Part shown: positions 41,961 through 56,709 of the stretch, in pieces
Layout: every line of letters starts with the position of its first letter
Numbering within the stretch: the first letter of the stretch is position 1
Origin: Prolixibacteraceae bacterium
Lineage (GTDB): Bacteria; Bacteroidota; Bacteroidia; Bacteroidales; Prolixibacteraceae
Direction: 5' to 3'
Length of the DNA stretch: 64,000 nucleotides
NCBI GenBank assembly: GCA_019163175.1
Contig: JAFLKN010000003.1
Coordinates: 310,001-374,000, forward strand
Program-made: the position numbers and the translations under genes
The notes under the pieces: generated by a model
The model's input: the letters and a program-made list of their open reading frames with translations, nothing else
What the model was told of the DNA's origin: nothing
Databases searched by the model: none

Positions 41961-42884
41961 ATGGGATTGCTTATCCGCCGAAAATTTAGCCTGGGGTGGT
42001 TACCTGACTACCCTGACTTCAGAGACCTTACGGTCGAAAACGACGATGTGTCGGTCAGATTAAAAGGATTAGGTCAAAAAGATTCGATAAAAGAAATGCT
42101 TTCGAAAGCTGGTGCCAACAACGCGGCTAAAACCAAATTACCTACTTCGGTATCATTAACCAACTGGTTTTCTCCCGTTGAAGATCAGGAAGAACTTGGC
42201 TCGTGCACTGCCAATGCAGGTGTGGGATTGGTTGAATATTTTGAGCGACGTGCATTCGGAAAACATGTTGATGCCTCGCGATTATTCCTATATAAAGCCA
42301 CCCGTAACCTGATGAAGGAAAAAGGTGATACCGGCGCCTTTCTGCGGACAACCATGGGCGCTTTGGTGCTTTTTGGTGTCCCACCTGAAGAATACTGGCC
42401 CTACCAAATTGCTAATTTCGACAAAGAACCAACAGCCTTTTGCTATGCTTTTGCCCAAAATTACCAGCCAATGAGCTATTACCGGCTCGATCCTCCGGGA
42501 ACTACGCCTACCGAACTGCTGACACGTATTAAAAAGAATCTCGCCGCCGGACTTCCGTCGATGTTTGGCTTTACGGTTTACAGCTCTATCGTTCAGGCGG
42601 GTGACAATGGTGGCAAAATTCCTTACCCAACCAAAGGTGACAAGATTGAAGGCGGGCATGCAATTGTTGCAGCCGGTTACGACGACAAAATGAAAATCAA
42701 AAACTCAATTTCAGGCGCCGTTGAAACTACCGGTGCGCTTTTAATCAGAAACTCATGGGGAACCAGTTGGGGAGATAATGGTTACGGCTGGCTTCCATAC
42801 GAATATGTGCTTCAGGGACTTGCTGACGACTGGTGGTCGCTCCTGAAAAACGAATGGGTAGATACAGGCAATTTTAAACCCTGA
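41961..42884 (+). CDS. C1-family (papain-like) cysteine peptidase, no signal peptide
   Basis: The 307-residue protein carries a complete papain-type active site: Q76 in VEDQEELGSC, nucleophile C82, H233 in GGHAIVAAGYD and N264 in RNSWGTSWGDNGYGWLPY. The N-terminus (MGLLIRRKFSLGWLPDYPDFRD) is the usual start of bacterial cytosolic C1 peptidases rather than a signal peptide, so it probably acts in the cytoplasm unless exported by another route. It is the first gene of the thirteen-gene cluster, 119 bp after direct repeat A. The next gene begins 63 bp downstream. Target protein unknown. Confidence 0.9.
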   Translation: MGLLIRRKFSLGWLPDYPDFRDLTVENDDVSVRLKGLGQKDSIKEMLSKAGANNAAKTKLPTSVSLTNWFSPVEDQEELGSCTANAGVGLVEYFERRAFGKHVDASRLFLYKATRNLMKEKGDTGAFLRTTMGALVLFGVPPEEYWPYQIANFDKEPTAFCYAFAQNYQPMSYYRLDPPGTTPTELLTRIKKNLAAGLPSMFGFTVYSSIVQAGDNGGKIPYPTKGDKIEGGHAIVAAGYDDKMKIKNSISGAVETTGALLIRNSWGTSWGDNGYGWLPYEYVLQGLADDWWSLLKNEWVDTGNFKP

Positions 42885-42947
42885 GGTTATTAAAATCTAC
42901 CTAAAAAAATAAAGGCAAAGAATGGAATTGGCTAAAACAAATTCAAT

Positions 42948-44090
42948 ATGATTAACTCCGGAATCTTAGATATTGTCATCGGACTGGTTTTTATTTACTT
43001 GTTATATAGTCTGCTGGCCACTATTATTCAGGAAATAATTGCATCGAATTTCGGATTTAGAGCCAAAATTTTAGAGCGGGCTATATTCCGAATGTTGGAG
43101 GATGAAAATAAATTCAACAACAGGTTCACCAGTGTCTTTTATTTATTTAAAAAGTCGGGTAACGGAGGGAAGATAAATTCGACTTCGGGTGAGTTCTATC
43201 AGCATCCGCTTATAAAGTTTCTGGGTGAAGACAATAGTCGAAAAAAACCAGCATACATTAACAGCACAACTTTTTCGAAGGTAATTGTCGATCTGCTCCG
43301 GGGTAATGACATCAAGCCGGGCGATGATGTAAATTCATTGATTCAAAAAGCTTTGGATCAAAATGCCACAAACTGGGGAAATACAAAAATAAGTGATGAA
43401 ACACTCAGTTTTTTGAAATCTATTTGGGCTGATTCTGACGGTGATATTGTGAAATTTAGACGTCACTTGGAAAGTTGGTTCAATGAAACTATGGATCGGG
43501 CTTCGAGCTGGTATAAAAAGCATACTCAATTCATTTTGTTTTTTGTCGGCTTAACCATTGCCATTGTGTTCAATGTCGATACCATGAAGATTGTCGATAA
43601 ACTTGAAAAAGATCCAAAACTAAGGGGACAACTCGTTCAGCAGGCCGATGCTTTTGTTCAGGCTCACCCAGATTTGGATATAAGACTGAAGGAGAAGGAA
43701 ATAGAGTTCAAAAGAGCCATGGCAACAATTCAGAAGACAGACTCGGCAATCCAGGCAAATTCGACAAACGACATCATGAAGCTTTCATTGGAACTTGAAA
43801 ATTACAAGCTTCTTAAATCACGTAGAGATACTTTACTGAATCGGGCTGAAACATTAATTCAAAAAGACATCCAAAATATTCACCATTCTCTCGGACTGAA
43901 ATGGGAAAATTATGACCGTAAACCCGGATCATACCTATCACTTTTAAAATCATTAATGGGATGTGTAATTACCGCAATCGCACTTTCAATGGGCGCACCC
44001 TTCTGGTTCGATTTATTGAATAAACTGATGAAATTACGAGGTTCAGTCGCTACTCCTACTTCGGATGACAAAGAAAAGAAACAGGGTTAG
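42948..44090 (+). CDS. Membrane protein with three helices and coiled-coil region, unknown function
   Basis: This 380-residue protein has an N-terminal helix (LDIVIGLVFIYLLYSLLATIIQEII), a central one (QFILFFVGLTIAIVFNV, about 195-211) and one near the end (LMGCVITAIALSMGAPFWFDLL). Between the last two lies a charged region of about 120 residues, probably coiled coil (KEKEIEFKRAMATIQKTDSAIQ). No signal peptide cleavage site or known domain is seen. It is the second gene of the cluster. It might anchor or organise the soluble enzymes at the inner membrane; this is a guess from context. Confidence 0.78.
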   Translation: MINSGILDIVIGLVFIYLLYSLLATIIQEIIASNFGFRAKILERAIFRMLEDENKFNNRFTSVFYLFKKSGNGGKINSTSGEFYQHPLIKFLGEDNSRKKPAYINSTTFSKVIVDLLRGNDIKPGDDVNSLIQKALDQNATNWGNTKISDETLSFLKSIWADSDGDIVKFRRHLESWFNETMDRASSWYKKHTQFILFFVGLTIAIVFNVDTMKIVDKLEKDPKLRGQLVQQADAFVQAHPDLDIRLKEKEIEFKRAMATIQKTDSAIQANSTNDIMKLSLELENYKLLKSRRDTLLNRAETLIQKDIQNIHHSLGLKWENYDRKPGSYLSLLKSLMGCVITAIALSMGAPFWFDLLNKLMKLRGSVATPTSDDKEKKQG

Positions 44091-44200
44091 CGATCACAAA
44101 AGATACATTATGGGACTGATCAAAATTGACAGAAGCACTTTATTAAATTTTTACAATCGGATTTTCAATTAACCGGAATCCGTAGAACAAAACACAATCT

Positions 44201-45214
44201 ATGTTGAAGCATAAATTCGATATTATTCCTTTTAAAGCATTCGATGGATTCGAGTGCAACCTTTGGCGATTAAAACATAACCGATCGAAACATCGCGGAC
44301 CGGTGATGCTGGTGCACGGAGCAGGCGTTCGGGCCAATATTTTCAACCCACCGAACGAAGTGAACATTTTGGATATGCTCGCCGATGCCGGCTATGATGT
44401 GTTTCTCGAAAACTGGCGGGCCAGTACTGAGTTCCGGGCCAATAAATGGGATTTGGATGTGGTTGCTAAAAACGACCATCCTGCTGCTATTCAAAAGGTA
44501 TGTGAAGTGAGTGGTTCTGCAACCTGCAAAGCAATTATTCATTGCCAGGGATCGACAAGTTTTATGATTTCCGCCGTTGAAGGTTTGGTTCCGCAGGTAA
44601 AAACAATCATTACCAATGCTGTTTCACTGCATCCGGTGGTTCCATCCTGGTCGCGGGTTAAATTGGATGTAGTTCTCGAAATTGCAGGCTTGATTACCGA
44701 TTATCTCAATCCCCGCTGGGGCGACGAGGCTCCGGATTTTCGTGCGAAGTTTTTTAAGGCATTAGTACTTGCCACTCATTTCGAAAATGATACCAAGGTC
44801 GGAAAATTTGTAAGTTTTACCTATGGAGCAGGCTTTCCGGCCCTGTGGGAGCTGGAAAACCTCAGCGATGAAACCAAAGACTGGATCCGGAACGAGTTTG
44901 GCCCAGTACCAGTACATTTTTTCCGGCACATCCGAAAAGGCGTGCACAACGGTTCATTGGTTTCTGTGGATGGTTCGAAACGCTATGCCGATTCGTTACC
45001 TGCAACCGATGCGCGGTTTGTCTTTTTTGCCGGAAAACTCAACAAGTGTTTCCTGAGTGAAAGCCAGGAGAATTCCTATGACTATTTCAACCGGATAAAA
45101 CCGGATTTCCACAAACTGCATGTGTATAATTCGTACAGTCATCTGGATATTTTTCTGGGAAAGAATGCACATCAGGATGTTTTTCCAGTAATGATTGACG
45201 AAATGAATGCCTGA
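44201..45214 (+). CDS. Alpha/beta-fold hydrolase, related to GMC-linked esterase domains
   Basis: The 337-residue protein has the alpha/beta-hydrolase pattern: oxyanion-hole region VMLVHGAGVRANIF, nucleophile S118 in HCQGSTSF (G-x-S-x-G-like, with Cys-Gln-Gly before and Thr-Ser after), and candidate H314 in YSHLDIF. ILDMLADAGYDVFLENWRAS and VSLHPVVPSWSRVKLDVVLE recall the hydrolase domain fused to the C-terminus of some actinobacterial GMC oxidoreductases, and a separate GMC gene is in this cluster. It probably cleaves an ester or thioester of a hydrophobic compound. No signal peptide. Confidence 0.87.
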   Translation: MLKHKFDIIPFKAFDGFECNLWRLKHNRSKHRGPVMLVHGAGVRANIFNPPNEVNILDMLADAGYDVFLENWRASTEFRANKWDLDVVAKNDHPAAIQKVCEVSGSATCKAIIHCQGSTSFMISAVEGLVPQVKTIITNAVSLHPVVPSWSRVKLDVVLEIAGLITDYLNPRWGDEAPDFRAKFFKALVLATHFENDTKVGKFVSFTYGAGFPALWELENLSDETKDWIRNEFGPVPVHFFRHIRKGVHNGSLVSVDGSKRYADSLPATDARFVFFAGKLNKCFLSESQENSYDYFNRIKPDFHKLHVYNSYSHLDIFLGKNAHQDVFPVMIDEMNA

Positions 45215-45344
45215 TTTTAGTTTGTAAAACTATTCCGGTGAGTTTAAAAATAGAGCAATTCAAAAAGTGGAGACCAGCGACCACTCCAAAAAACGGGGCG
45301 AATTTCCGAAAAGCCAGATGAGTTGGAGACTAAAAATTAAAATT

Positions 45345-45617
45345 ATGCCAAAGTATGTAATTGAAAGGGAAATTCCAGGTGCCGGCAATCTAACTGCCGA
45401 ACAATTGAAAGGAATTTCAAAGATTTCCTGTGATGTATTAAGCAAAATGGGTTCAGAAATACAGTGGGTTCAAAGTTATGTAACCACAGACAAAATCTAT
45501 TGCGTTTACATTGCACCAAACGAGGAAATGGTTCGTGAACACGCGAAATTGGGTGGATTCCCGGCCAATTCAGTAAACCAGGTTTCTACAATTATTGACC
45601 CAACCTCTTCCGAATGA
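45345..45617 (+). CDS. DUF4242 (SCO4226-like nickel-binding) small protein
   Basis: The 90-residue protein begins MPKYVIEREIPGAGNLTAEQL and continues IQWVQSYVTTDKIYCVYIAPNEEMVREHAKLGGFPANSV, the DUF4242 signature. The family is a ferredoxin-like fold; one member, SCO4226 of Streptomyces, was shown to bind nickel. The ATG at 45345 gives the standard start; an earlier in-frame codon at 45267 would add 26 residues without family similarity. It lies between the alpha/beta hydrolase and decarboxylase-like genes and may act as a small accessory or metal-binding protein. Confidence 0.87.
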   Translation: MPKYVIEREIPGAGNLTAEQLKGISKISCDVLSKMGSEIQWVQSYVTTDKIYCVYIAPNEEMVREHAKLGGFPANSVNQVSTIIDPTSSE

Positions 45618-45709
45618 ATTTTTCGATCAGGAAATAAAGTTAATTGATTTGACAGTCAGGAAAGATTTGCTCTTAACTGAAAATTAAGTCACTAAAACCA
45701 AAATAGAAC

Positions 45710-46597
45710 ATGTCAGTATCAAAACGAATTAAAGATTACGAAGGCCGGTATTCCATGGTTGATGGAATCACTTTTAAGTTGCCGGTAGGCGCCACCCAAT
45801 CGCCCGCGATTATGGCTGGGTTTTTATGCGATTACGAAAAAGCCAAAGCCATTTTACCCGGAAACGAATTGCATCCGGTAAAGGCTTTTGGGAAAGCTGT
45901 TTTTATGGTTACAGTGATTGACTATCGGGTTACGACCATTGGCAAATACATCGAATACAGCATTGCACTGGCTGTGACAAGAGGCCGCAAGCCAGCTCCG
46001 CCTTTGCTTCCGGCCATGCTGATGAAAACTTTCAAAACCGGTCAATTTATTTTGGATCTTCCGGTAAGTTCCGAAGTTTCGGTAAAAGGCGGAAAGGGAA
46101 TCTGGGGGATGCCCAAACACAAAGCAAACCTCGATTTTATTATTACCGACAATCAGGTCAGTTCGCAGTACGAAAAAGACGGTCAGTTTGCTTTCCGGAT
46201 TGAAATTGACAAACCGCAAAAGACCAATTTTCCGATCAATCTGAGTGCAATCAACTACAGTCATTTCCGGAATATGTTGATGGCCTCGTACATTCATTTT
46301 AAATCGAAAGCCGGAATCCGGTTCGGGAAAAGTGCCACCGGACGATTGTTTATTGGCGATCATCCACGAACCAAATTTTTGAAAGATCTGCAAATTGAGA
46401 GCAAACCATTTTTCACGATGTTCATGCCAGAAACCACCGGCATTCTCGACGATCATTTCGAATGCTGGTTCATGACGTACGAAAACAAGCCTGAAAAAGT
46501 CACTCCTGAAGGATATGAAAGCGTGTTCAATCTGGGACTCAATGAAGATTGGCTCGATGCGCCATCTATTACCGATTACGAAAAATTCAAAATCTAA
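45710..46597 (+). CDS. Acetoacetate decarboxylase-family protein
   Basis: This 295-residue protein shows the ADC fold, in which a lysine forms a Schiff base with a beta-keto acid: PPLLPAMLMKTFKTGQFILDLPVSSEVSVKGGKGIWGMPKHKANLDF holds candidate lysines, with GMPKHKA corresponding to the GyPKk region. The end (FETMF-like FFTMFMPETTGILDDHFECWFMTYENKP) is also family-like. Members include decarboxylases, hydratases and aldolases, so the reaction is uncertain. It begins the tightly packed part of the cluster: the next gene starts 12 bp after its stop. Confidence 0.83.
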   Translation: MSVSKRIKDYEGRYSMVDGITFKLPVGATQSPAIMAGFLCDYEKAKAILPGNELHPVKAFGKAVFMVTVIDYRVTTIGKYIEYSIALAVTRGRKPAPPLLPAMLMKTFKTGQFILDLPVSSEVSVKGGKGIWGMPKHKANLDFIITDNQVSSQYEKDGQFAFRIEIDKPQKTNFPINLSAINYSHFRNMLMASYIHFKSKAGIRFGKSATGRLFIGDHPRTKFLKDLQIESKPFFTMFMPETTGILDDHFECWFMTYENKPEKVTPEGYESVFNLGLNEDWLDAPSITDYEKFKI

Positions 46598-46609
46598 AAC
46601 TACCTCACT

Positions 46610-47089
46610 ATGAAACTTAAACAGACTCTACTCGACATCAATAACGCGTACATCTTTTTTTGCTCATCCATTTACCTTGGTATGTTCTGGACACTTCACT
46701 TTTTCTTTTTCCCGAACTACCCGACCAAGCTGAATGTGAGCAATTATTACGATGCGATTATTCCGCAAACCGATACGGCCACGAAGTTTTTCTTCATCTC
46801 TATCCCGATCATGGCGGTTGCTTTGGTAATCATGCTGATTACGGAATGGAAAACCAGATTCCGCTGGATTCCGCTGGCATGGATTCCGGGCCTGCTTGTT
46901 CCGGTGGTGACTCAGCAAAAGTTTATTGAAGATATCAACGACCAGTTTAAGGCTGGTGTAACTGATCAGGCTGTCCTTCAGGAATTACTGAAAGACTGGA
47001 TGTTTTTCAATGATGTGCGTTTTTATATCCTTGCCCTAATGTGGGGCATTACCATGTATTATTTTATTGCCAAAGGGCGTAATGCATAA
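46610..47089 (+). CDS. Small four-helix membrane protein A
   Basis: The 159-residue protein has helices at about 14-33 (FFCSSIYLGMFWTLHFFFFP), 60-77 (FFFISIPIMAVALVIMLI), 85-100 and 138-153. The plan recalls DUF1772-type membrane proteins, some of which are oxygenase- or redox-linked, but sequence similarity is weak. It lies 12 bp after the decarboxylase-like gene and 3 bp before the next membrane gene, so translation is coupled. Confidence 0.72.
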   Translation: MKLKQTLLDINNAYIFFCSSIYLGMFWTLHFFFFPNYPTKLNVSNYYDAIIPQTDTATKFFFISIPIMAVALVIMLITEWKTRFRWIPLAWIPGLLVPVVTQQKFIEDINDQFKAGVTDQAVLQELLKDWMFFNDVRFYILALMWGITMYYFIAKGRNA

Positions 47090-47092
47090 CCC

Positions 47093-47479
47093 ATGAAAAA
47101 ACTGATCCGCCTCGTGATTTTACTGATTTCCGTGGCCACTTTGTTTTCCGGCGCCATGCAGGCCATAGCTCCTTCGTTTGTTCTCAATTTTATTGGGGCA
47201 CAAATTGACCCGACAACCAAACAGCTATTTGCCACCATTGGCATGTTCATGTTTCTGTTTGGTGCCATGATGATTCATGCCATGTACAACGAAGAAAACA
47301 ATCGGGTGGTTGTAATCTGGTCAGGGTTACAAAAGTTAGGCGCTTCGGCTGCCGTTTTCATCGGCATTTCTCAGGATGTATTTGTCCCGCTTGCTGCCGG
47401 AGTTGCAGTGTTCGATTTATTGTCGGCACTCCTGTTTTTCTATTATTTAAAAACGCTTAAAAGCGATGCAATTGGTTAA
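47093..47479 (+). CDS. Small four-helix membrane protein B
   Basis: The 128-residue protein consists almost entirely of four hydrophobic helices (LVILLISVATLFSGAMQAI; LFATIGMFMFLFGAMMI; LGASAAVFIGISQDVF; GVAVFDLLSALLFFYYL) with short loops, a common layout for small quinone-site or scaffold-like membrane proteins. No enzyme motif is seen. It starts 3 bp after membrane protein A and overlaps the next gene by 14 bp. Confidence 0.74.
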   Translation: MKKLIRLVILLISVATLFSGAMQAIAPSFVLNFIGAQIDPTTKQLFATIGMFMFLFGAMMIHAMYNEENNRVVVIWSGLQKLGASAAVFIGISQDVFVPLAAGVAVFDLLSALLFFYYLKTLKSDAIG

Positions 47480-47885
47480 TTACTTTTTCTATTATTTCTA
47501 TGTCGGGTTGCTAATTGTTGCCGGTTTCTGGGGCGCTTTTATCAATCCCGAATTTGATTTCGGCTTGCTCTTTAATTTGGATACTGACACTTTAACCGAC
47601 CATCAACGAATCAACGTATTGAGCCAGTACCGGTTTCTAAGAGCTATTGAATTGGGTTTTGGCACTTTTGCCATCCTGTTTGTGAGGAACATTTTCAGTA
47701 AAAAGAAATTCAACCGGTTATTCATTTTCATCATGAGTGCTGGAGTTCTTTCAAGAATAGTTTCAATTGTAATGGATGGAAATCCGAATTGGCTGATGCT
47801 TTTCTTCCTTGGTTTTGAATTGGTAGGAGTGTTGGTCATTATTTTTTATTCACGAAAACTGGTTATTCAAAATGTCATTGCCTAA
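47466..47885 (+). CDS. Small four-helix membrane protein C (DUF4345-like)
   Basis: The 139-residue protein has four helices with a conserved-looking loop RFLRAIELGFGTFAILFVRNIFSKKKFNRLF, similar to DUF4345 proteins. It overlaps membrane protein B by 14 bp and the patatin gene by 14 bp. Three small membrane proteins in a row, each coupled to the next, suggest one hetero-oligomeric membrane assembly that could hold the lipid-active enzymes encoded around it. Confidence 0.74.
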   Translation: MQLVNYFFYYFYVGLLIVAGFWGAFINPEFDFGLLFNLDTDTLTDHQRINVLSQYRFLRAIELGFGTFAILFVRNIFSKKKFNRLFIFIMSAGVLSRIVSIVMDGNPNWLMLFFLGFELVGVLVIIFYSRKLVIQNVIA

Positions 47886-49287
47886 AAGTATTATCGCTGA
47901 AGTTAACTCAGCCGGAATCAAACGATCGCTGATTCTGGCTGGTGGAGGCGCGCGGCTTGCATATCAGGCGGGCGTTATCAAAGCGCTTGAGGAAGATGGA
48001 TTAAACTTCAGTCATTTCGATGGCACTTCAGGTGGAATTTTTAATACCGCCATGTTGTGCTCAGGAATTGAAGCCAAAGACATGGGCACACGCTGGCGGA
48101 AGGTCAATGTGATGAACTTTTCGTCGCTGCTGCCTTTTAAAAGCTATTTCTCGAAAAATACATTTGCAGCCTTTGGCGATGCCGATGGAATGATAAACAA
48201 AGTATATCCTACTCTTGGAATTGATGTGGCAAAGATGAATGCCAACACTTCGATTGATGCCACTTTTAACGTTTGCAATTTCTCGAAGAAAACGGTTGAG
48301 GTTTTCTCAAACCAAAATGTGACTCTTCAGCATTTGGTAGCAGGAATGTCGCTGCCCATTTTTATGCCAGCACTGAAAATAAACGGAGATTGGTATACCG
48401 ATGCCGTTTGGATTAAAGACGCCAACATCACCGAAGCACTGAAACGAAACGTGAAAGAGATTTGGTTGGTTTGGGCTATCGGCAACTCGCACGAATATTT
48501 AAACGGCACTTTCAACCAGTATGTGCACATGATTGAAATAAGCGCCAATGGCGGATTGCTGCTCGAACTTGAACTAATTGAGAAACTTAACAGCGAAAAA
48601 TCGGAGGCTGATAAAACGATTCTGCACGTCATTAAGCCTGAATTTCCATTGCCACTCGATCCGGATATGATGTTCAACAAAATTAATGCTGACGAACTGA
48701 TTAACCGGGGTTATGCTGATGCAAAAAGTTATCTGCAAACCAAGCCTGAGCAGGGAGTTGCACCCGATTACCAGGCCTCACTGATGAAAGAACCCGGTGC
48801 AGCTTTGATTTTTCGATCCTTATTCTCCGGAAAAATTGAATGGAAACAGCAACCAACAACCTTTTCCATAAACGTAAATTTCAATTTCAGAACTATTTCC
48901 AACGAATTGGTTTTACGCGCCTTTGCATCCGTTTCTTTCGGGAACAGCGAATGCCGAATTTCAACCTACAACAATCAAGTGATGATCAATCAAAACGAAC
49001 ATACTTTAACATTTGAATGCGATTTTGTTTTTGAAGATCAAATCCAGCATTTGCATGCCCAACTCGATTTGATCAGTCCGTATGATTTATTGCTCGGTCT
49101 GGAATTTAAAAAGGCCCGATGCATTATTTCTGGTAAAAATTTGCAGAAACCCATTTCAGCAGTGCTAAAGCAAAACGCATGGATCCGGATTAAAAATGTT
49201 CCGTTCATTCATGTGAGCAGCAGCAATGGGTTGGTAGGCAAATGGAAAGAAAAATTCAGGATTTTGAAGGAAGTTTATGGGAAATAA
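47872..49287 (+). CDS. Patatin-like phospholipase with extra C-terminal domain
   Basis: Patatins hydrolyse acyl esters of phospholipids with a Ser-Asp dyad. The 471-residue protein has the glycine-rich oxyanion loop LILAGGGARLAYQAGV, nucleophile S53 in GTSGG and D177 in YTDAVW, all in order. Residues about 300-471 form a separate beta-rich domain (TFSINVNFNFRTISNELVLRAFASVSF; LLLGLEFKKARCIISGKN) that appears to resemble the C-terminal domain of the GMC oxidoreductase in this cluster. No signal peptide. It overlaps the genes on both sides (14 and 11 bp). A lipid hydrolase tightly linked to an oxidase supports a lipid pathway. Confidence 0.9.
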   Translation: MSLPKSIIAEVNSAGIKRSLILAGGGARLAYQAGVIKALEEDGLNFSHFDGTSGGIFNTAMLCSGIEAKDMGTRWRKVNVMNFSSLLPFKSYFSKNTFAAFGDADGMINKVYPTLGIDVAKMNANTSIDATFNVCNFSKKTVEVFSNQNVTLQHLVAGMSLPIFMPALKINGDWYTDAVWIKDANITEALKRNVKEIWLVWAIGNSHEYLNGTFNQYVHMIEISANGGLLLELELIEKLNSEKSEADKTILHVIKPEFPLPLDPDMMFNKINADELINRGYADAKSYLQTKPEQGVAPDYQASLMKEPGAALIFRSLFSGKIEWKQQPTTFSINVNFNFRTISNELVLRAFASVSFGNSECRISTYNNQVMINQNEHTLTFECDFVFEDQIQHLHAQLDLISPYDLLLGLEFKKARCIISGKNLQKPISAVLKQNAWIRIKNVPFIHVSSSNGLVGKWKEKFRILKEVYGK

Positions 49288-51076
49288 TAAAAATATGAGC
49301 TCTACTAAAAAATACATTCAGCCCAAAATGGTGAACTGGTACGATACCAAACAGTTGGCATCTACCGGATTGCGATCGGTCATTTCGGGCCAATTCGGGC
49401 ATTATGCTGATAAACGCGAATTGCAGGCTGCACTGCGACCTCATGTTGAAGCCATCAATTTTGGTGATGAACCGGAGATTTGGATCGATTACGTTTCGGA
49501 TACCGGCGATGGGTTCAACTCCACTTTTTCGATTGCCAAACTGGTTTCGGAGCAAAAGCTTAAACTCGCTTTAAAAAATGAGTTTGCAGCTGGACGAGAA
49601 GTAGAAACACAGGGTGGGAAGATCATCATTTTCGGTGGTGATCAGGTTTACCCTACTCCGGAAATGGTTGAATACGAAAACCGCTTTAAAATTCCTTTCG
49701 GGACTGCAAATCCATACAATGAATCGACTCCGGAAAACGCACGACCAAGAATGTTCGCCATTCCGGGAAATCACGACTGGTACGACGGATTAGGCAATTT
49801 CATCAGCCTTTTTTGCCAGAAGCGGCGGATAGGCAACTGGCAAACGGTTCAGGAGCGAAGCTATTTTGCCATTCAACTGCCACACAATTACTGGATTTTT
49901 GGCATCGATGTGCAATTAAACTCGGATATCGATCAGCCGCAAAAGGAGTATTTTCAGAAAATCGCCATCGACAAAATGAAAGACGGAGACAAGGTTATTC
50001 TTTGTACCGCCGAGCCTGCTTGGGTTTATTACCAGATGTACAACAACAACGAATCGTACAAACGCCTGAAATATTTCGAATCGCTTTACATCACCGATGA
50101 TGCCTACCAACTGATTGGCAAAAAGTTCAAACTGGTGACTACCATTACCGGCGACCTGCACCACTATTCGCATTACGAAGAGCAAAAAGAGGGCTATATC
50201 AATCACCTCATCACCGCCGGAGGTGGAGGCGCATTTCTTCATCCGACTCATCTCTTGCCCGATAAATTAACCAAGCAGTCGGATGTAAATTATTCATTTC
50301 AGAACAGCAAATCAACCGGTGAACCCGAACTGAAAGCTGCGTTCCCATCGAAAAAAGACTCCCGAAATCTGGCATTCTGGAACTTTGCATTTCCCTGGTT
50401 CAACAAGCAGTTTGTAATGTTTCTTTCGGCAGTGGAATTGCTGCTAACCTGGATGTTGCAGGGAACAACATATTACGATAAGAGCGGAACTTTTGTGGAG
50501 CAACTGGCAAAAATCGATGGGTTTGGTTCTTCATTCAGGTTTATTTTCAGCACCCTTCTGAATAACCCGCTTTTCATTTTAATTAGCATCGTCCTGATTT
50601 TCGGATGTATGGTTTTTACCGACACCAAACGCATCAAACGTTTAAACTTGTTTGTGGGCTTGCCACACGGCCTCATTCAATGGCTCAACCTGATGCTTTG
50701 GCTGATCATTTTTTCGCAGGCTTTTCACCCTTTATTTCCTGAAAGTCAGCAAACGTTATTCGTTATTTCGAGCACAATTGCTGCTGCGATTGCCGGAGGA
50801 ATTTCAGGAGCATTTATCTTCGGAATTTACCTTTGGATTGGTATCTATGTCCTGAACGTCCATCTGGACGAAGGCTTCTCTTCCATAGCCCATCAGCATT
50901 ACAAAAATTTTCTGCGCCTCCACATAACCAAAGACCAGTTGACCATTTATCCGGTTGGAGTTGACCGGGTAACCACCCACTGGAAACAATCCGGAGAAGG
51001 AGAAACCCTGAAATTTGAAGGACCGCTTCCGGAATGCCATTTAATTGAATCGCCAATAATCATTAAAAACACATAA
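49277..51076 (+). CDS. Metallophosphoesterase with C-terminal membrane helices
   Basis: The 599-residue protein has a calcineurin-like phosphoesterase domain (about 65-330): YVSDTGDGFNST, IIFGGDQVYPT (D122), PGNHDWYDG (N165-H166-D167) and ITGDLHHYSHYE, with metal-binding His/Asp residues present. An insert between the GD and GNHD motifs gives extra length. Residues about 375-530 contain four to five membrane helices, and the last 70 residues are soluble again. It could remove phosphate or a nucleotide from a lipid-like substrate at the membrane. It overlaps the patatin gene by 11 bp, and GMC starts 1 bp after its stop. Confidence 0.88.
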   Translation: MGNNKNMSSTKKYIQPKMVNWYDTKQLASTGLRSVISGQFGHYADKRELQAALRPHVEAINFGDEPEIWIDYVSDTGDGFNSTFSIAKLVSEQKLKLALKNEFAAGREVETQGGKIIIFGGDQVYPTPEMVEYENRFKIPFGTANPYNESTPENARPRMFAIPGNHDWYDGLGNFISLFCQKRRIGNWQTVQERSYFAIQLPHNYWIFGIDVQLNSDIDQPQKEYFQKIAIDKMKDGDKVILCTAEPAWVYYQMYNNNESYKRLKYFESLYITDDAYQLIGKKFKLVTTITGDLHHYSHYEEQKEGYINHLITAGGGGAFLHPTHLLPDKLTKQSDVNYSFQNSKSTGEPELKAAFPSKKDSRNLAFWNFAFPWFNKQFVMFLSAVELLLTWMLQGTTYYDKSGTFVEQLAKIDGFGSSFRFIFSTLLNNPLFILISIVLIFGCMVFTDTKRIKRLNLFVGLPHGLIQWLNLMLWLIIFSQAFHPLFPESQQTLFVISSTIAAAIAGGISGAFIFGIYLWIGIYVLNVHLDEGFSSIAHQHYKNFLRLHITKDQLTIYPVGVDRVTTHWKQSGEGETLKFEGPLPECHLIESPIIIKNT

Positions 51077-51077
51077 C

Positions 51078-53414
51078 ATGAAACGATTATCAAAACCAAT
51101 TACCGCGCTAAAATCGCATTACGATTATCTCATTGTCGGATCAGGATACGGCGGAAGCATCGCAGCTTCGCGCCTTTCGCGTGCCGGATTGCAAGTTTGT
51201 CTTCTGGAAAAAGGCAAGGAATTTCAACCGGGCGAATATCCCTGGGACTTGGACGATGCCGCCAAAGAAATGCAGGTGAATACCGACAAAAAACACATTG
51301 GCAGCAAAACCGGACTGTACGAATTTTATATGGGCAAAGAAATGACGGTTTTTAAAGGCTGCGGATTGGGCGGCACGTCAAACGTAAACGCCAATGTTTC
51401 CATCGAGCCTGAACCTCGTGTTTTCGAAGATGTTCGTTGGCCGGCAGCTATCCGGAATGAAATGCAAACCTTGAAAGACGGCTTCGACAAAGCACGAAAA
51501 ATGCTGAAGCCAAGTCCTTATCCTGAAGGAAAACCAGGCTTTCCGGAGCTGGCTAAAACAAAAGGAATGAAAACTTCGGCAGCAGCGATGAAGGAAGAAT
51601 TCAGATATCTGGACATCAATGTGAATTTCGAATACGATAATCAGCCAAACCATGTGGGCGTGGACCAGAAGAAATGCAACAACTGCGGCGATTGTGTTAC
51701 CGGTTGCAACCATCATGCAAAAAATACACTCATCATGAATTACCTGCCCGATGCGGTAAATCACGGAGCCGAAATTTTCTGTGAAACCGGCGTGCAATAC
51801 ATCGAGCGAAAAGACGGTAAATGGCTGGTTTACTTTTACCTGTACAATGTAGGTCGCGAAAAGTTTGACGCGCCACCACTTTGCATCACTGCCGATCATG
51901 TGATTTTATCGGCAGGCGCTTTGGGCAGCACCGAAATACTGCTACGATCAAAAGCAAAAGGACTGAATATATCTTCTGCATTGGGAAAACATTTCACCGG
52001 AAATGGTGATGTGCTTGGTTTTGGCTACAACAATGATGTTAAAGTAAATGGTATCGGTTTAGGAAAACATTTTGACGATGAGGACAAAGAACCAGTTGGG
52101 CCGTGCATCACGTCCATTATTGACATGCGCAACCGGGAGGTACTCGACGAAGGAATGACTCTGGAAGAAGGTAGTATTCCTGCACCGATCGCGCCATTAC
52201 TGACTTCAGCGTTTATTTCACTTTCCAGATTGATGGGCAACGACACCGATAATGGACATCAGGATTGGGTAACCGAGAAAAAACGGGAAGCACTGAGTTT
52301 GCTGAAAGGCCCCTATCGCGGCGCATTAAACAACACGCAGGTTTATTTGGTGATGACCCATGATGATGGAAATGGCTCGATGCATCTGGATAACGACCGT
52401 TTGGAAATTAGCTGGCCCGATGTGGGTAAACAGGGCATCTTCAAAAAAGTAAACGGTAAGCTTCAGGAAGCCACCAAAGCGCTTGGCGGAACCTATTTGC
52501 CCAATCCGCAATGGAATAAGCAGATGGATTACGACATGGTAACCGTTCATCCGTTGGGCGGTTGCGTGATGGGCGATGATGCCACAACCAGTGTAACCAA
52601 TCATTTAGGGCAGGTGTACAGTAATACCTCCGGAACCGATTTGCACGAGGGTCTGTATGTGATGGACGGCGCCATTATTCCGCGTCCGCTAGGGACAAAT
52701 CCGTTGTTGACGATTTCCGCTTTGGCCGAGAGAAACAGCAAACTTATCGTTGAAGCCAATCAGAAAACACTGAGCTACGATTTTAAGCCGGTAGCCAAAT
52801 CACCGCTAAAAGAGAACGAAGCAGGAGTTTCATTCACCGAAACCATGCGCGGATTCATTTCGTTCGATGAAAAATCGGACTACAAAAAAGGATACGATCT
52901 GGGGCAAAAGAGTAATTCACTGTTCGATTTTACCCTGACCATACAATCGCAAGACGTAGAAGCCTTTGATAAAGATAGCAGTCACAAAGCTGAATTGATT
53001 GGAACAGTGAACTGCCCAGCCTTATCAGAATACCCAATTACCGCCATAGACGGCGTGTTCAATCTGTTTGTAAAAGACGATACCGCCGGAAAAGTAAAGC
53101 TGATGAAATACGGAATGAAGCTGAATACATGCGAAGGCGCGAATTTCTACTTCTATGGATTTAAAGAAATTAAAGATGACAAAGGGTTCGACATGTGGAG
53201 CGACACTACCACTCTTTTTATAACCGTGTTTGATGGCGATGATGATCAAAGTCCGGTAAAAGGGAAGGGAATTCTGAAAATTGAAATGGGAGACTTTATC
53301 AAGCAACTGCAAACGATGAAAGCAATTCATGCAGATAACACCAAAGAATCACTAACCTCTGTTTCCAAATTCGGGAAGCTGTTTGCCGGCGAAGTCTGGG
53401 AAACCTATTTTTAA
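51078..53414 (+). CDS. GMC-family FAD oxidoreductase with CxxCxxCxxxC insert
   Basis: The 778-residue protein has the GMC (cholesterol/alcohol oxidase) fold: FAD-binding YLIVGSGYGGSIAASRLSR (G21, G23, G26), the C-terminal HPLGGCVMGDD with H491, and N541 in GTNPLLTISALAER. Residues 200-210 contain four cysteines, CNNCGDCVTGC, spaced like an iron-sulphur or zinc site, in the middle of the FAD domain; this motif occurs in a subset of cholesterol-oxidase-like GMC proteins. After residue 570 comes an extra domain of about 200 residues starting VSFTETMRGFISF. No signal peptide. It should oxidise an alcohol to a ketone or aldehyde; sterols or terpenoid alcohols are possible, unproved substrates. Confidence 0.92.
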   Translation: MKRLSKPITALKSHYDYLIVGSGYGGSIAASRLSRAGLQVCLLEKGKEFQPGEYPWDLDDAAKEMQVNTDKKHIGSKTGLYEFYMGKEMTVFKGCGLGGTSNVNANVSIEPEPRVFEDVRWPAAIRNEMQTLKDGFDKARKMLKPSPYPEGKPGFPELAKTKGMKTSAAAMKEEFRYLDINVNFEYDNQPNHVGVDQKKCNNCGDCVTGCNHHAKNTLIMNYLPDAVNHGAEIFCETGVQYIERKDGKWLVYFYLYNVGREKFDAPPLCITADHVILSAGALGSTEILLRSKAKGLNISSALGKHFTGNGDVLGFGYNNDVKVNGIGLGKHFDDEDKEPVGPCITSIIDMRNREVLDEGMTLEEGSIPAPIAPLLTSAFISLSRLMGNDTDNGHQDWVTEKKREALSLLKGPYRGALNNTQVYLVMTHDDGNGSMHLDNDRLEISWPDVGKQGIFKKVNGKLQEATKALGGTYLPNPQWNKQMDYDMVTVHPLGGCVMGDDATTSVTNHLGQVYSNTSGTDLHEGLYVMDGAIIPRPLGTNPLLTISALAERNSKLIVEANQKTLSYDFKPVAKSPLKENEAGVSFTETMRGFISFDEKSDYKKGYDLGQKSNSLFDFTLTIQSQDVEAFDKDSSHKAELIGTVNCPALSEYPITAIDGVFNLFVKDDTAGKVKLMKYGMKLNTCEGANFYFYGFKEIKDDKGFDMWSDTTTLFITVFDGDDDQSPVKGKGILKIEMGDFIKQLQTMKAIHADNTKESLTSVSKFGKLFAGEVWETYF

Positions 53415-53449
53415 GAAGATCGTAGCATAAATACATTAAAATCAGAGTT

Positions 53450-54034
53450 ATGCCAGCACTTGTAGAAGGATTCAGCGAAGTTTTCGGGATATTAAAGGAA
53501 TTGGCTTCCGGAGTAAAAACAGCCATAGAGCTTAAGGAAAACCAGAAAAATGAATTAAGGGATGCCATTGCCAAAACAGCAGAGCTCGTAGATCAAACAT
53601 TGGCTATTGTAAAACAGCACTTAACCAGTGTTATTTCTGAACTGAAATTCAGAGACCGCCAAAATGCAAAAATAATGATTGCTGAATTAGCATCTTTTCC
53701 TGGTTGGGAAGACAAATACCGGCGATTTCAGCTGTGCGACGCGCTTCGGTTAGCAACAGATAATCTGGAAAGGAAAGGATTGTACAAGTATTTGAACAAA
53801 ATATCATTTAATGATCCTAAAACTATTCAGCGGCGGATGTTTGATTACATCGGCGGCGAAGTTAACGCAGCGAAATCCGTTGTAACCATGCTTGAGAGTT
53901 TGGCACCATTCGCCGATTCGGTAGATTCTGATTTTGAAATGGTTTTAAGAAATCTGGAAGAGGCCCGAAATGAAGTCGGCAAATTGCGGCAGGCGTTTAT
54001 TGATTTGGAGATCGAAATCAGAAATTCAATATAA
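53450..54034 (+). CDS. Helical hypothetical protein
   Basis: The 194-residue protein is predicted to be almost entirely helical and soluble, with long amphipathic stretches at the start (FSEVFGILKELASGVKTAIELKENQKNELRDAI) and end (LRNLEEARNEVGKLRQAFIDLEIEIR). No known domain is recognised. It follows the GMC gene by 35 bp and precedes the lipoprotein by 11 bp, so it belongs to the cluster transcript. It may be a binding or scaffold protein for the other members. Confidence 0.72.
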   Translation: MPALVEGFSEVFGILKELASGVKTAIELKENQKNELRDAIAKTAELVDQTLAIVKQHLTSVISELKFRDRQNAKIMIAELASFPGWEDKYRRFQLCDALRLATDNLERKGLYKYLNKISFNDPKTIQRRMFDYIGGEVNAAKSVVTMLESLAPFADSVDSDFEMVLRNLEEARNEVGKLRQAFIDLEIEIRNSI

Positions 54035-54045
54035 AAAACAAAACC

Positions 54046-54849
54046 ATGAAAACCCATCTACTTATTCTGATCACGGTAATTGGACTTACTTTTCTTTCTT
54101 CATGCAATTCAAGTCTTGACAGAAAAATTGCTTCTGAAGAAGCCGCAGTAGATACAGCTACCATTGCCCCTCCTGCTACTGATGTGCCTGCCACAGATAC
54201 TGAATATCCTGAAACAGAACCGGCACCAGTCGCTGCCGATTCAATCGCAAAGGGTCCGCATTACATTAAATACATGTCGTATATTAAAAAAACCGAAGGA
54301 ACATTGGTATATTATTGCCCTTCACGAATGCTGGAAAACACGGATAACAATGTTTCGGTTACAATTACCAAAGCAGCCTTGAAACAGGCAATTGATGAAT
54401 TGGAAAAGCGAGTGGCCGCAACAACAGGAAAACCAAGCGAATTGATTCACGACAACATCAGCGGAAGTTCAATAACAATTGCATCGAAAATGAAAGTTGA
54501 ACTAAAATATGCCGATAAAGATTTCCAGACCATTTATAAGCCAGAATACGATGACCAGATTTTTGACGGTAAAAATGATATGCATTGGGATTGGATTATC
54601 AAGCCTACTAAAGTTGGAAACCTTCAGCTTTCAATTATTCTATCAGCTTTCGATGAAAAAAATGGCCGTTGGATAGCTGTTCAAACTCCGCCTAAAATAT
54701 TCGATATTAAAGTTCAGGTCGATCCCCGAGGTTACTTTTCTAAATTGTGGGGATTTTTTGGAGATCACCCCGAGTGGCTGTTAACACAGCTCCTTTTCCC
54801 GTTGGCCGCTTTCTTCTATGGCAAACGGCAAAAAGCAAAGGCAGCCTAG
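54046..54849 (+). CDS. Lipoprotein with C-terminal hydrophobic segment
   Basis: The 267-residue protein has lipobox TFLSSC, a Pro/Thr/Ala-rich linker (residues about 40-70), then a mixed alpha/beta domain (YIKYMSYIKKTEGTLVYYCPS ... WDWIIKPTKVGNLQLSIILSAF) and a final hydrophobic stretch LLTQLLFPLAAFFYGKRQKAKAA. A lipid anchor at one end and a helix at the other would make it span the periplasm side. It ends the cluster; copy B of the direct repeat lies 37 bp after its stop. Confidence 0.76.
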   Translation: MKTHLLILITVIGLTFLSSCNSSLDRKIASEEAAVDTATIAPPATDVPATDTEYPETEPAPVAADSIAKGPHYIKYMSYIKKTEGTLVYYCPSRMLENTDNNVSVTITKAALKQAIDELEKRVAATTGKPSELIHDNISGSSITIASKMKVELKYADKDFQTIYKPEYDDQIFDGKNDMHWDWIIKPTKVGNLQLSIILSAFDEKNGRWIAVQTPPKIFDIKVQVDPRGYFSKLWGFFGDHPEWLLTQLLFPLAAFFYGKRQKAKAA

Positions 54850-55137: not shown

Positions 55138-56709
55138 ATGAAAAAAGCAAACCTCATCTTAACATTCATATTGCTTGTAAGTATAAGTGTACTTGGACAA
55201 AGTAAAGTTGAATATGACTTTATAACAAAAGAACCACCTAAAATCTCTACAGCAGACATTGGGACAAACAGTGTTTTTAGAGTTAACCGCATTAATAAAT
55301 TTCTTTATGAAGTCAAAATTGAATCAAGTCAATCAGAATTCAACTCAACTCCCCCCGCAATTTTTTCTACAATTTTTACCTTTGAAAAAAAAGAAGAAAA
55401 TACTATTAAGTCAGAAGCTGATAAAGTAATTGAGAACTCATCGGAAACAAAGGAAAAGATCGAAACTGCCCTTCTATTTGGAACTGAAAAAGCAATTCTA
55501 TATAAGAATAAGCAAATGCTTTCCTCATTTAATGAAGACTTATTTGAATTAAACGAGCAGCCAGATAGCTTGAAAGAAAATTCTAAAATATCACAATTGA
55601 ATCAAACAATTAATGATCTAAAGGCTGCAATAAAAACTCAAGAAGATAAAATTACTCAACTAAATACAATAATAGATAATGAATATTTGAAAAAGACAAC
55701 TGAAATTCATGTAAATGGCAGAATTGTAAGTGAATCATTTGACCAGTTAGAAGAAGCAAAAACTATAAAAAATAAACTTATAAGGATTACATTAACAGAC
55801 GGGTTGGATTACAAAAAAGCTATAGATGAGATAAATCAATTGACTTCTGAATATCCATTGATATTCAAACCAGAAAAACTATTATCTTCTTTCCAAAGCA
55901 GTTATAATAGTTTTAAAACTTCTCTTCAACTTTATTTTATTAACACGGCTGTAAAGACGCATTTTGGTAATGATGAAGGAAAGTTAAGAGAATCTATAAC
56001 TCCACTTTCAACTGAAGTTGAAGACATCAAGAAAAAAGTAGATAAATTCGATTATACAAAATTATTCGAAGAAATAAACCAGCTTATTACAGAATTAAAG
56101 AATGAAAACAACTATTTTATTTGTTCTGATCCAGTGCAGGCAAGAAAAGATGTAATAAATTATAATGTTAAAATATCACCGAGGAAAGGAGTTGAGTCAT
56201 TAACAGCTTTAGAGAATAGAAACTTTAATATAGAAGTTCCTATAAAAGGGGGAGTGAAAATTGATTTCAGTACTGGGTTATTTGTGACAACTAATCTTCA
56301 TGACAGAAAATACAGTAAAACTACATCTACATCTGACAGTACTCAATTTATAATAACTGAAAATAAGAATAATAGTTTAGCTAAATTATCATTAGGAGCT
56401 CTAATGCATATTTCGCCGCGTTGGACAGGAAATTTCAAACCAGGATTCACGTTTGGGTTGGGTTTAAATTCTACTGACCTGACAAATGCCCAAATTTTTA
56501 TTGGAGGAAGTGCAATATTTGGTACTAATGAAAGATTTATTATTTCGACCGGTGTTTCACTTGCTAATGTTGACTATCTGAATGGAAAATATTTATTAGA
56601 TACTCCTATAAAAAACTCAGAAATAGAAACTTCTTTAACAGAAAAGTCAACAAGAGCAGGATGGTTTATTAGTTTTACATATAATTTGACTAACAAAAAG
56701 AAAGAATAA
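55138..56709 (+). CDS. Secreted coiled-coil protein with outer-membrane barrel-like end, AT-rich
   Basis: The 523-residue protein has a signal peptide ending ISVLGQ. Residues about 145-190 form a coiled coil (SKISQLNQTINDLKAAIKTQEDKITQLN), followed by a mostly helical middle. From about 375 onwards beta strands with barrel character appear (GGVKIDFSTGLFVTTNL, GLGLNSTDLTNAQIFIGGSAIFG) and the protein ends GWFISFTYNLTNKKKE. I do not recognise the family. Base composition and codon use (many AAA, AAT, ATA, TTA) are visibly AT-richer than the neighbours, a sign of transfer or relaxed selection. It shares the upstream direct repeat with the cluster, so it may be co-regulated. Confidence 0.72.
   Translation: MKKANLILTFILLVSISVLGQSKVEYDFITKEPPKISTADIGTNSVFRVNRINKFLYEVKIESSQSEFNSTPPAIFSTIFTFEKKEENTIKSEADKVIENSSETKEKIETALLFGTEKAILYKNKQMLSSFNEDLFELNEQPDSLKENSKISQLNQTINDLKAAIKTQEDKITQLNTIIDNEYLKKTTEIHVNGRIVSESFDQLEEAKTIKNKLIRITLTDGLDYKKAIDEINQLTSEYPLIFKPEKLLSSFQSSYNSFKTSLQLYFINTAVKTHFGNDEGKLRESITPLSTEVEDIKKKVDKFDYTKLFEEINQLITELKNENNYFICSDPVQARKDVINYNVKISPRKGVESLTALENRNFNIEVPIKGGVKIDFSTGLFVTTNLHDRKYSKTTSTSDSTQFIITENKNNSLAKLSLGALMHISPRWTGNFKPGFTFGLGLNSTDLTNAQIFIGGSAIFGTNERFIISTGVSLANVDYLNGKYLLDTPIKNSEIETSLTEKSTRAGWFISFTYNLTNKKKE

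Follow-up and report, generated by a model that had tools for sequence, protein, structure and literature searches.

The window analysed here, the whole 64,000-nucleotide stretch of DNA from a Prolixibacteraceae bacterium, carries thirteen plus-strand open reading frames at 41961-54849, listed below with their family assignments and their presence among 13 distinct near-complete loci that we compared, the window counted in.

41961..42884, + strand: papain-like peptidase (Peptidase_C1, PF00112), accessory, 5 of 13 loci
42948..44090, + strand: membrane protein, no Pfam family at cut-off, accessory, 4 of 13 loci
44201..45214, + strand: acid-lipase-like alpha/beta hydrolase (Abhydrolase_1 below cut-off) with an HCxG Cys nucleophile (Cys115) and His314, core
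45345..45617, + strand: SCO4226-like (DUF4242, PF14026) protein, accessory, 2 of 13 loci
45710..46597, + strand: acetoacetate decarboxylase (ADC)-superfamily protein (PF06314, 50.4 bits against a cut-off of 29.8) with Lys136 in a GMPKH motif, core
46610..47089, + strand: c6, small Anthrone_oxy-type membrane protein (PF08592 weak, 15.3 bits, below cut-off), core, 13 of 13 loci
47093..47479, + strand: c7, small four-helix membrane protein, no Pfam family at cut-off (DUF1673 below it), core, 13 of 13 loci
47466..47885, + strand: c8, small DUF4345 membrane protein (PF14248, 54.7 bits against 26.5), near-core, 9 of 13 loci
47872..49287, + strand: patatin-like acyl hydrolase (PF01734, 73.8 against 27.7 bits) with an intact Ser53/Asp177 dyad, core, 13 of 13 loci
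49277..51076, + strand: MPE, membrane-anchored metallophosphoesterase (Metallophos, PF00149, 24.1 bits against 21.5), core, 12 of 13 loci
51078..53414, + strand: cholesterol-oxidase-like GMC flavoprotein (GMC_oxred N and C), core, 13 of 13 loci
53450..54034, + strand: helical protein, no Pfam family, accessory, 4 of 13 loci
54046..54849, + strand: lipoprotein-like gene, no Pfam family, window alone (1 of 13 loci)

The positions in the window's open reading frame list and the recomputed gaps bear out the earlier note's account of thirteen same-strand genes around a nearly gapless block. Intergenic distances across 45710-53414 are 12, 3, -14, -14, -11 and 1 bp, and the outer gaps of the run are 63, 110, 130, 92, 35 and 11 bp; the DUF4242 start was set at the ATG at 45345, and a GTG start at 45267, also listed, would reduce the gap upstream of it to 52 bp. 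Promoter-like and terminator-like sites at the locus showed no excess over shuffled sequences.

Neighbourhood analysis shows that the conserved unit is narrower than thirteen genes. It comprises eight (44201-45214 plus 45710-53414): the Cys-type hydrolase, the ADC-like protein, c6, c7, c8, the patatin, MPE and the GMC flavoprotein. ADC carriers made up 4 of 395, 5 of 100, 2 of 92, 3 of 114 and 2 of 201 genomes, which gives 12 distinct Bacteroidota genomes, and all 12 loci were read. The hydrolase adjoins the ADC gene in every one of them (in the window with the DUF4242 gene in between), and with ADC at the locus we found GMC in 11 of 12, c6, c7 and the patatin in 11 of 12, MPE in 9 of 12 and c8 in 8 of 12. 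Across the compared loci, c8 is missing from four and MPE from one. L043 lacks both MPE and c8 and has a GMC protein without the C-terminal domain, and at L070 neither GMC nor MPE was found within the 15 kb read. Among 395 genomes of the phylum, the ADC protein occurs in four and the GMC C-terminal domain in five (counts from two draws with the same genome handles); all four lie within the five and have both genes at one locus, so the association goes beyond chance (hypergeometric P ~5e-9). Of 282 phylum genomes, five have the hydrolase, and GMC accompanies it in all five.

Some core genes also occur outside the set. In Segetibacter (L016-L018, with L017 and L018 covering less sequence) GMC is the sole core gene, and at L015 it is accompanied by MPE alone; MPE is solitary in two of the six phylum genomes that have it (G306 and G271); and a Cupriavidus locus (L034) has MPE and GMC without the hydrolase.

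The five outer genes are lineage-specific, counted over flanks of unequal length at the 13 loci, where absence from a short flank is not informative. The peptidase, not always adjacent, is present in the window, L011, L019, L046 and L009 (via its longer copy L045), and the 42948-44090 membrane protein of the window has homologues in L009 and L013 and a partial one in L010. The DUF4242 protein is confined to the window and L019. The helical protein occurs in the window, L009, L011 and L013, as well as on two short contigs (L008, L012), with a partial tblastn match in L020. The lipoprotein-like gene had no match in any compared locus and is probably not part of the cassette. Gene-neighbourhood analysis, the check that had been proposed for the thirteen-gene pathway, thus upholds the dense block as a unit, with a neighbourhood conserved in two phyla and gene fusions elsewhere, and does not extend to the five outer genes, which recur in few loci.

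The second phylum is represented by an Arthrobacter plasmid (L031), on which GMC, MPE, hydrolase, ADC, c6, c7 and patatin lie in a row without c8. The distribution is patchy, and the cassette looks laterally transferred between unrelated bacteria. At seven further loci (L023, L026, L027, L028, L029, L032 and L033) GMC and the hydrolase are fused in one polypeptide, and in Ensifer a single 1908-residue protein joins GMC, hydrolase and a PhoD phosphatase; these fusions are independent evidence that core genes share a task. The GMC-hydrolase fusions (of Leptospira, Bernardetia, Rhizobium, Azospirillum, Persicobacter and Variovorax plasmids) have the same GMC protein, C-terminal domain and hydrolase as the window, but their fetched flanks hold no homologue of ADC, c6-c8 or the patatin. 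MPE adjoins the fusion in Azospirillum and also in one Bacteroidota genome (G092). No function for the fusion proteins was found in the open-access literature, among the matches listed.

In the profile comparison the hydrolase comes closest to gastric lipase and to lysosomal acid lipase/cholesteryl ester hydrolase, with alpha/beta-hydrolase similarity to gastric lipase 1hlg at E 5e-17. Whereas acid lipases have a Ser nucleophile, the hydrolase has Cys115 aligned with the Ser of the gastric lipase HSQG motif. Cys115 and His314, which we take to be the catalytic residues of the family, are invariant in 23 rows, and with Cys at the lipase elbow the protein was not assigned as a true acid lipase. 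PHA synthases use a Cys nucleophile, a feature shared with the hydrolase, but matches to them were weak and scored below those to acid lipases, and assignment to class I (TIGR01838) was rejected at 16.7 bits against a cut-off of 622.65. A relative with the same HCxG motif lies in a polyketide-synthase locus of a Rhodococcus plasmid.

The ADC-like protein belongs to the acetoacetate decarboxylase superfamily by its gathering score and its conserved Schiff-base Lys position: Lys136, presumably the catalytic Lys, is invariant in 15 rows and matches the PK Lys when an annotated ADC is aligned with it. In the patatin, Ser53 (GxSxG) and Asp177, presumed to be the catalytic residues of that family, are invariant in 12 rows, an alignment that excludes the copies of L022, L031 and L043, which fell under the length filter. 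The hydrophobic segments of MPE fall within residues 432-526. For the small membrane proteins, the Arthrobacter copy of c6 barely passes the Anthrone_oxy cut-off (27.8 against 27.3 bits), and the AF2 model of c7 (pLDDT 86.7) has four long helices. Neither of two AF2 models gave a specific PDB match, so an electron-acceptor role for c6-c8 is a guess.

The best PDB relatives of the GMC flavoprotein are cholesterol oxidases. It shares with the class I enzymes (PDB 1b4v, 4u2l) the FAD-binding fold (profile positions 16-313 and 415-555) and the HPLGG and GxNPxxTI motifs; its invariant His491 and Asn541, which we take to be the residues used for catalysis in the GMC family, align with the HPLGG His and the GVNP Asn of cholesterol oxidase. 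Glu363 is likewise invariant and is a candidate counterpart of cholesterol oxidase Glu361, a position that the PDB alignment does not span. Unlike the class I enzymes, the protein has an additional C-terminal barrel-like domain (about residues 560-778), no N-terminal hydrophobic segment, genetic linkage to the Cys-type hydrolase and a Cys cluster at 200-210, a stretch in which cholesterol oxidase has no Cys. Assignment to the NCBIfam cholesterol oxidase equivalog (NF058674) was rejected at 158.6 bits against 850.

Within that cluster, all 30 aligned rows have Cys200, Cys206 and Cys210, and 28 of them have Cys203 (two of the 30 duplicate others); we predict an Fe-S cluster at Cys200/203/206/210. 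In Burkholderia cepacia FAD-GDH, the 3Fe-4S ligands are Cys212/218/222 with C-x5-C-x3-C spacing (PMC6719666). The GMC triad has this spacing and a comparable position along the polypeptide (the two proteins were compared without mutual alignment), and the catalytic subunit of the Burkholderia enzyme is likewise described there as a GMC protein with such a triad and a His/Asn catalytic pair. Because of the shared Cys spacing, the GMC flavoprotein is probably an electron-passing dehydrogenase, not an oxidase. It differs from the Burkholderia enzyme in having cholesterol oxidases as its nearest PDB relatives and in its likely cytoplasmic location, and Pfam assigned none of the 13 genes to a hitchhiker or multihaem cytochrome c family of the kind that partners that enzyme.

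Synteny, and in part gene fusion, marks the eight genes as a unit, and the presumed catalytic residues are kept in GMC, hydrolase, patatin and ADC-like protein. We tentatively regard the locus, at somewhat below even confidence, as a metabolic cassette, conserved and laterally mobile, that works at the inner membrane on a bulky hydrophobic alcohol bearing an acyl group. Its chemistry is most likely the removal or transfer of an acyl group and the oxidation of a bulky lipid alcohol, membrane-bound, with beta-keto-acid chemistry by the ADC-like protein. The hydrolase and the patatin would remove or transfer the acyl group; GMC would oxidise the freed alcohol, probably secondary and sterol-like, to a ketone, its electrons passing from FAD through the Fe-S cluster to a membrane acceptor, for which c6-c8 are candidates, rather than to oxygen. 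The ADC-like protein would use Schiff-base chemistry to decarboxylate the beta-keto acid that results, or to act on it in another way, and MPE may take phosphate off the substrate or a by-product. Lipid modification is favoured over complete breakdown, since the genes are few and the core includes no CoA enzyme or transporter. Lipid and alcohol chemistry at a membrane, as the earlier note had it, is supported as a theme, while the order of steps and the substrate stay inference.

Other readings share parts of this evidence. Processing of steryl or triterpenoid esters, with hydrolase and patatin cleaving the ester, GMC oxidising the 3-hydroxyl and the ADC-like protein decarboxylating a 3-keto-4-carboxy intermediate, would explain why cholesterol oxidase and the gastric and lysosomal acid lipases are nearest to the two enzymes, and agrees with the invariant His/Asn pair and Glu363 (the latter outside the PDB alignment). 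We consider it unlikely, given the Cys in place of Ser as hydrolase nucleophile, the Cys cluster missing in cholesterol oxidase and the lack of steroid-ring Pfam families among the 13 genes; moreover, only four of eight carriers have a squalene/hopene-cyclase-type gene, so carriers need not, as a rule, make a triterpenoid of their own. Distinctly unlikely, in our judgement, is a 3-hydroxy-acyl pathway in which a PHA-synthase-like Cys hydrolase and the patatin free 3-hydroxy acids that GMC converts to 3-keto acids and the ADC-like protein to methyl ketones. GMC followed by ADC is the chemically natural order for beta-hydroxy acids, and the Cys nucleophile, the weak PHA synthase matches and the retained ADC-like Lys agree with it, but those matches score under the acid-lipase ones, GMC is akin to oxidases of bulky ring alcohols and genes dedicated to hydroxy acids or CoA are missing from the core.

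On another reading, the cassette would make a secondary metabolite that is secreted or stays in the membrane; c6 would then be an enzyme of the anthrone-oxygenase type, and the hydrolase would transfer acyl groups. This draws on the Anthrone_oxy family of c6, the relative of the hydrolase in the Rhodococcus polyketide-synthase locus and the patchy spread of the cassette; it seems quite improbable, as none of the 13 genes or the 10 flanking proteins scanned belongs to a synthase, carrier-protein or ligase family. An anti-phage or inter-bacterial conflict array, in which patatin, hydrolase, MPE and papain-like peptidase would act as effectors, appears very improbable. Lipase-, peptidase- and phosphoesterase-type genes do stand side by side, the distribution is patchy and a Tle1-like phospholipase gene adjoins the cassette in L046, but PADLOC matched none of nine proteins scanned at E 0.01 (c4-c8 left out), no sensor or NTPase family is found among the 13 genes, and the redox and ADC enzymes are central while the peptidase lies outside the core.

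Returning to the lipid-alcohol cassette, no paper describing the gene set or the GMC-hydrolase fusion was recognised in the open-access literature, among the matches listed; to this extent the earlier note's remark that it knew of no described pathway with this gene set holds. A more far-reaching form of the proposal, which we consider possible if rather doubtful, is an undescribed membrane-bound pathway on a horizontally mobile cassette that spans two phyla or more. In it, a lipase-like acyltransferase with a Cys nucleophile would pass a lipid alcohol to an Fe-S GMC dehydrogenase, electrons would enter the membrane via new small multi-helix proteins and Schiff-base decarboxylation would follow, together a new lipid-oxidising respiratory module.

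Eight genes from ordinary-looking families stay together in unrelated bacteria and seem to be transferred as a single set. The set gives context to orphan families, namely DUF4345, the Anthrone_oxy-type c6, the family-less c7 and the GMC C-terminal domain, and it yields the prediction that a cholesterol-oxidase-like enzyme would be a dehydrogenase with an Fe-S cluster and not an oxidase, within a putative lipid pathway that can be tested directly in Flavobacterium hydrophilum IMCC34758, a named carrier.

The thirteen plus-strand ORFs that the earlier note had read as one lipid-type cluster (41961-54849; the window is G000:C2:310001-374000) were all found at its positions in an ORF listing, and the recomputed gaps inside the block 45710-53414 (12, 3, -14, -14, -11 and 1 bp) were the same. 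Their Pfam assignments, in gene order, are:

Gene 1, + strand, Peptidase_C1
Gene 2, + strand, without a Pfam family
Gene 3, + strand, alpha/beta hydrolase c3, weak Abhydrolase_1
Gene 4, + strand, SCO4226-like
Gene 5, + strand, acetoacetate decarboxylase-like protein c5, ADC
Gene 6, + strand, small membrane protein c6, weak Anthrone_oxy
Gene 7, + strand, small membrane protein c7, no Pfam family over the cut-off
Gene 8, + strand, small membrane protein c8, DUF4345
Gene 9, + strand, c9, Patatin
Gene 10, + strand, membrane metallophosphoesterase (MPE) c10, Metallophos
Gene 11, + strand, c11, GMC N and C
Gene 12, + strand, without a Pfam family
Gene 13, + strand, without a Pfam family

The lipoprotein-like gene at 54046-54849 has a counterpart in none of the compared loci, and the next gene downstream (55138-56709) lies within a low G+C stretch (0.31) and matches no family at its cut-off.

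Neighbourhood comparison upholds a real unit, better supported than it was from sequence alone, although the unit comprises eight genes (c3 and c5-c11) and not thirteen. Bacteroidota genomes were searched with the ADC protein as sole query in five overlapping samples, with hits in 4 of 395 genomes, 5/100 in the window's family, 2/92 in the family of genome G266, 3/114 in the order of G179 and 2/201 in the family of G122, giving 12 distinct positive genomes. All 12 ADC loci, two of which (L044 and L045) repeat contigs L011 and L009, were read with profile HMMs made from the window genes and their relatives. The hydrolase adjoins the ADC gene in every one, with the DUF4242 gene in between in the window. 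GMC is present at 11 (split over two ORFs in L071; not found in L070, where 15,000 of 20,817 bases were covered), as are c6, c7 and the patatin (the L071 contig ends within or just past ADC). MPE is present at nine (not in L043 or L070) and c8 at eight (not in L043, L046 or L070), L071 being cut by the contig end in both counts.

A GMC-seeded scan of named genomes yielded 13 loci: six with the cassette (L009, L010, L011, L013, L014 and L019), three short contigs (L008, L012 and L020), one with GMC and MPE only, the latter in two ORFs (L015), and three from Segetibacter with GMC and no other core gene (L016-L018, the last two being shorter stretches). Across 13 distinct near-complete loci (window, L009, L010, L011, L013, L014, L019, L021, L022, L031, L043, L046 and L047), hydrolase, ADC, c6, c7, patatin and GMC each occur in 13, MPE in 12 and c8 in nine; L069 and L072, beyond this set, also carry all eight genes. 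The GMC of L008:1-10052, on a contig labelled as a Chitinophaga pinensis MAG, is 92% identical to the window's; since several other near relatives carry a Prolixibacteraceae label, this one may be wrong. A Tle1-like phospholipase (PF09994, L046:122-1105) and a prolipoprotein-diacylglyceryl-transferase-like protein (PF01790, L046:9864-10727) border the L046 cassette, and by eye the cassettes of L045 and L013 are bordered by ORFs whose starts closely resemble those in L046.

Genome counts of each gene alone indicate that MPE and GMC can occur apart from the cassette, whereas no cassette-type ADC or hydrolase was seen outside a cassette or fusion in the Bacteroidota sampled. The hydrolase profile matched 5/282 genomes (four with the cassette, one with a fusion, none alone), and the profile of the GMC C-terminal domain matched the same five among 395. 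MPE was found in six of 395, three with the cassette, one adjoining the fusion and two without other core genes within the stretches covered. Outside Bacteroidota, a more distant hydrolase relative lies inside a polyketide-synthase locus on a Rhodococcus plasmid, the one read among five Rhodococcus records, and the annotation of this locus includes no GMC; the protein (L056:9962-11032, Rhodococcus pyridinivorans) shares the HCxG motif and has a type I polyketide synthase and a thioester reductase as neighbours.

Plasmid records matched by tblastn numbered 15 for the hydrolase, 8 for MPE, 108 for GMC and 5 for ADC; 40 of the 108 GMC matches were listed, and 11 stretches around GMC matches were retrieved. 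Arthrobacter sp. StoSoilB13 (L031) carries, in a row, GMC, MPE (two ORFs), hydrolase, ADC, c6, c7 and patatin, and Cupriavidus (L034) has GMC and MPE without the hydrolase. GMC and hydrolase form a single ORF in Azospirillum, Leptospira, Bernardetia, Rhizobium, Persicobacter and Variovorax records and in the Bacteroidota genome G092; on the Leptospira plasmid, a second, broken GMC-like gene follows the fusion gene in pieces (L027:8935-10520). A 1908-residue protein of an Ensifer sp. PDNC004 plasmid (L059:7935-13658) joins GMC (33-582), a Cys-type hydrolase (947-1265) and, at 1554-1825, a PhoD-like phosphatase. Because its PhoD family differs from the MPE family of the cassette, the support that this fusion gives to a GMC-hydrolase-phosphoesterase link is one of analogy, its third part not being homologous to MPE. 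A mobile barrel-like domain forms the C-terminus of GMC: it is fused to patatin in L022:16967-18634, L043:7425-9020, L069:6940-8505 and L070:5288-6916, and is a separate ORF in Pseudonocardia (L030). L022 has it on GMC as well, GMC lacks it in L043 and L069, and no GMC was seen in L070.

The cassette looks laterally transferred. RlmN, a housekeeping protein encoded nearby in the window, shares 77% identity with its counterpart in G438, from the same family, and 37% with its best hit in Flavobacterium hydrophilum (G802), which may be a paralogue; G467 gave no match at E 1e-20. The eight core proteins, in order, are 80, 83, 78, 76, 71, 72, 48 and 78% identical to those of F. hydrophilum (L014) and 60, 61, 72, 50, 60, 44, 43 and 59% to those of G438 (L047), so that all eight are nearer F. 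hydrophilum, opposite to RlmN. The ADC gene is present in 4/13 sampled genomes of the window's genus. Individual genes also look to have been swapped for divergent versions, namely MPE in L010 (L010:8163-9992; 52% identity, against 80-96% for the other seven L010 core proteins) and c6 in L013 (5624-6073) and L046 (7305-7751), both at 36-37% identity in loci without c8.

Gastric lipase and lysosomal acid lipase/cholesteryl ester hydrolase are the top matches of the hydrolase profile, followed by a PHA synthase. The nucleophile of the hydrolase is a Cys, invariant in 23 rows and kept in the Rhodococcus and Ensifer relatives. ADC Lys136, which we take from the family to be catalytic, is invariant in 15 rows and aligns with the PK Lys of one annotated ADC; patatin Ser53 and Asp177 are invariant in 12. 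The nearest PDB structures to GMC are cholesterol oxidases, and all 30 aligned rows keep its His491, Asn541 and Glu363. Cys200, 206 and 210 are present in 30/30 rows and Cys203 in 28/30, two rows being duplicates; cholesterol oxidase has no Cys in the matching stretch, and position 206 is Met in a Streptomyces GMC from outside the cassette. According to a report on Burkholderia cepacia glucose dehydrogenase, its GMC subunit holds a 3Fe-4S cluster on Cys212, Cys218 and Cys222 (PMC6719666); the likeness between the two proteins is in this C-x5-C-x3-C spacing.

Among the open-access papers listed, we found no recognisable description of this gene set or of the GMC-hydrolase fusion. No N-terminal hydrophobic segment was found in c3, c5, c9, c10 or c11, which points to a process that is likely membrane-associated and on the cytoplasmic side. 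Beyond the genes working together, each step of the scheme judged most likely is inferred from protein families; the cassette would be assigned to lipid-alcohol oxidation.
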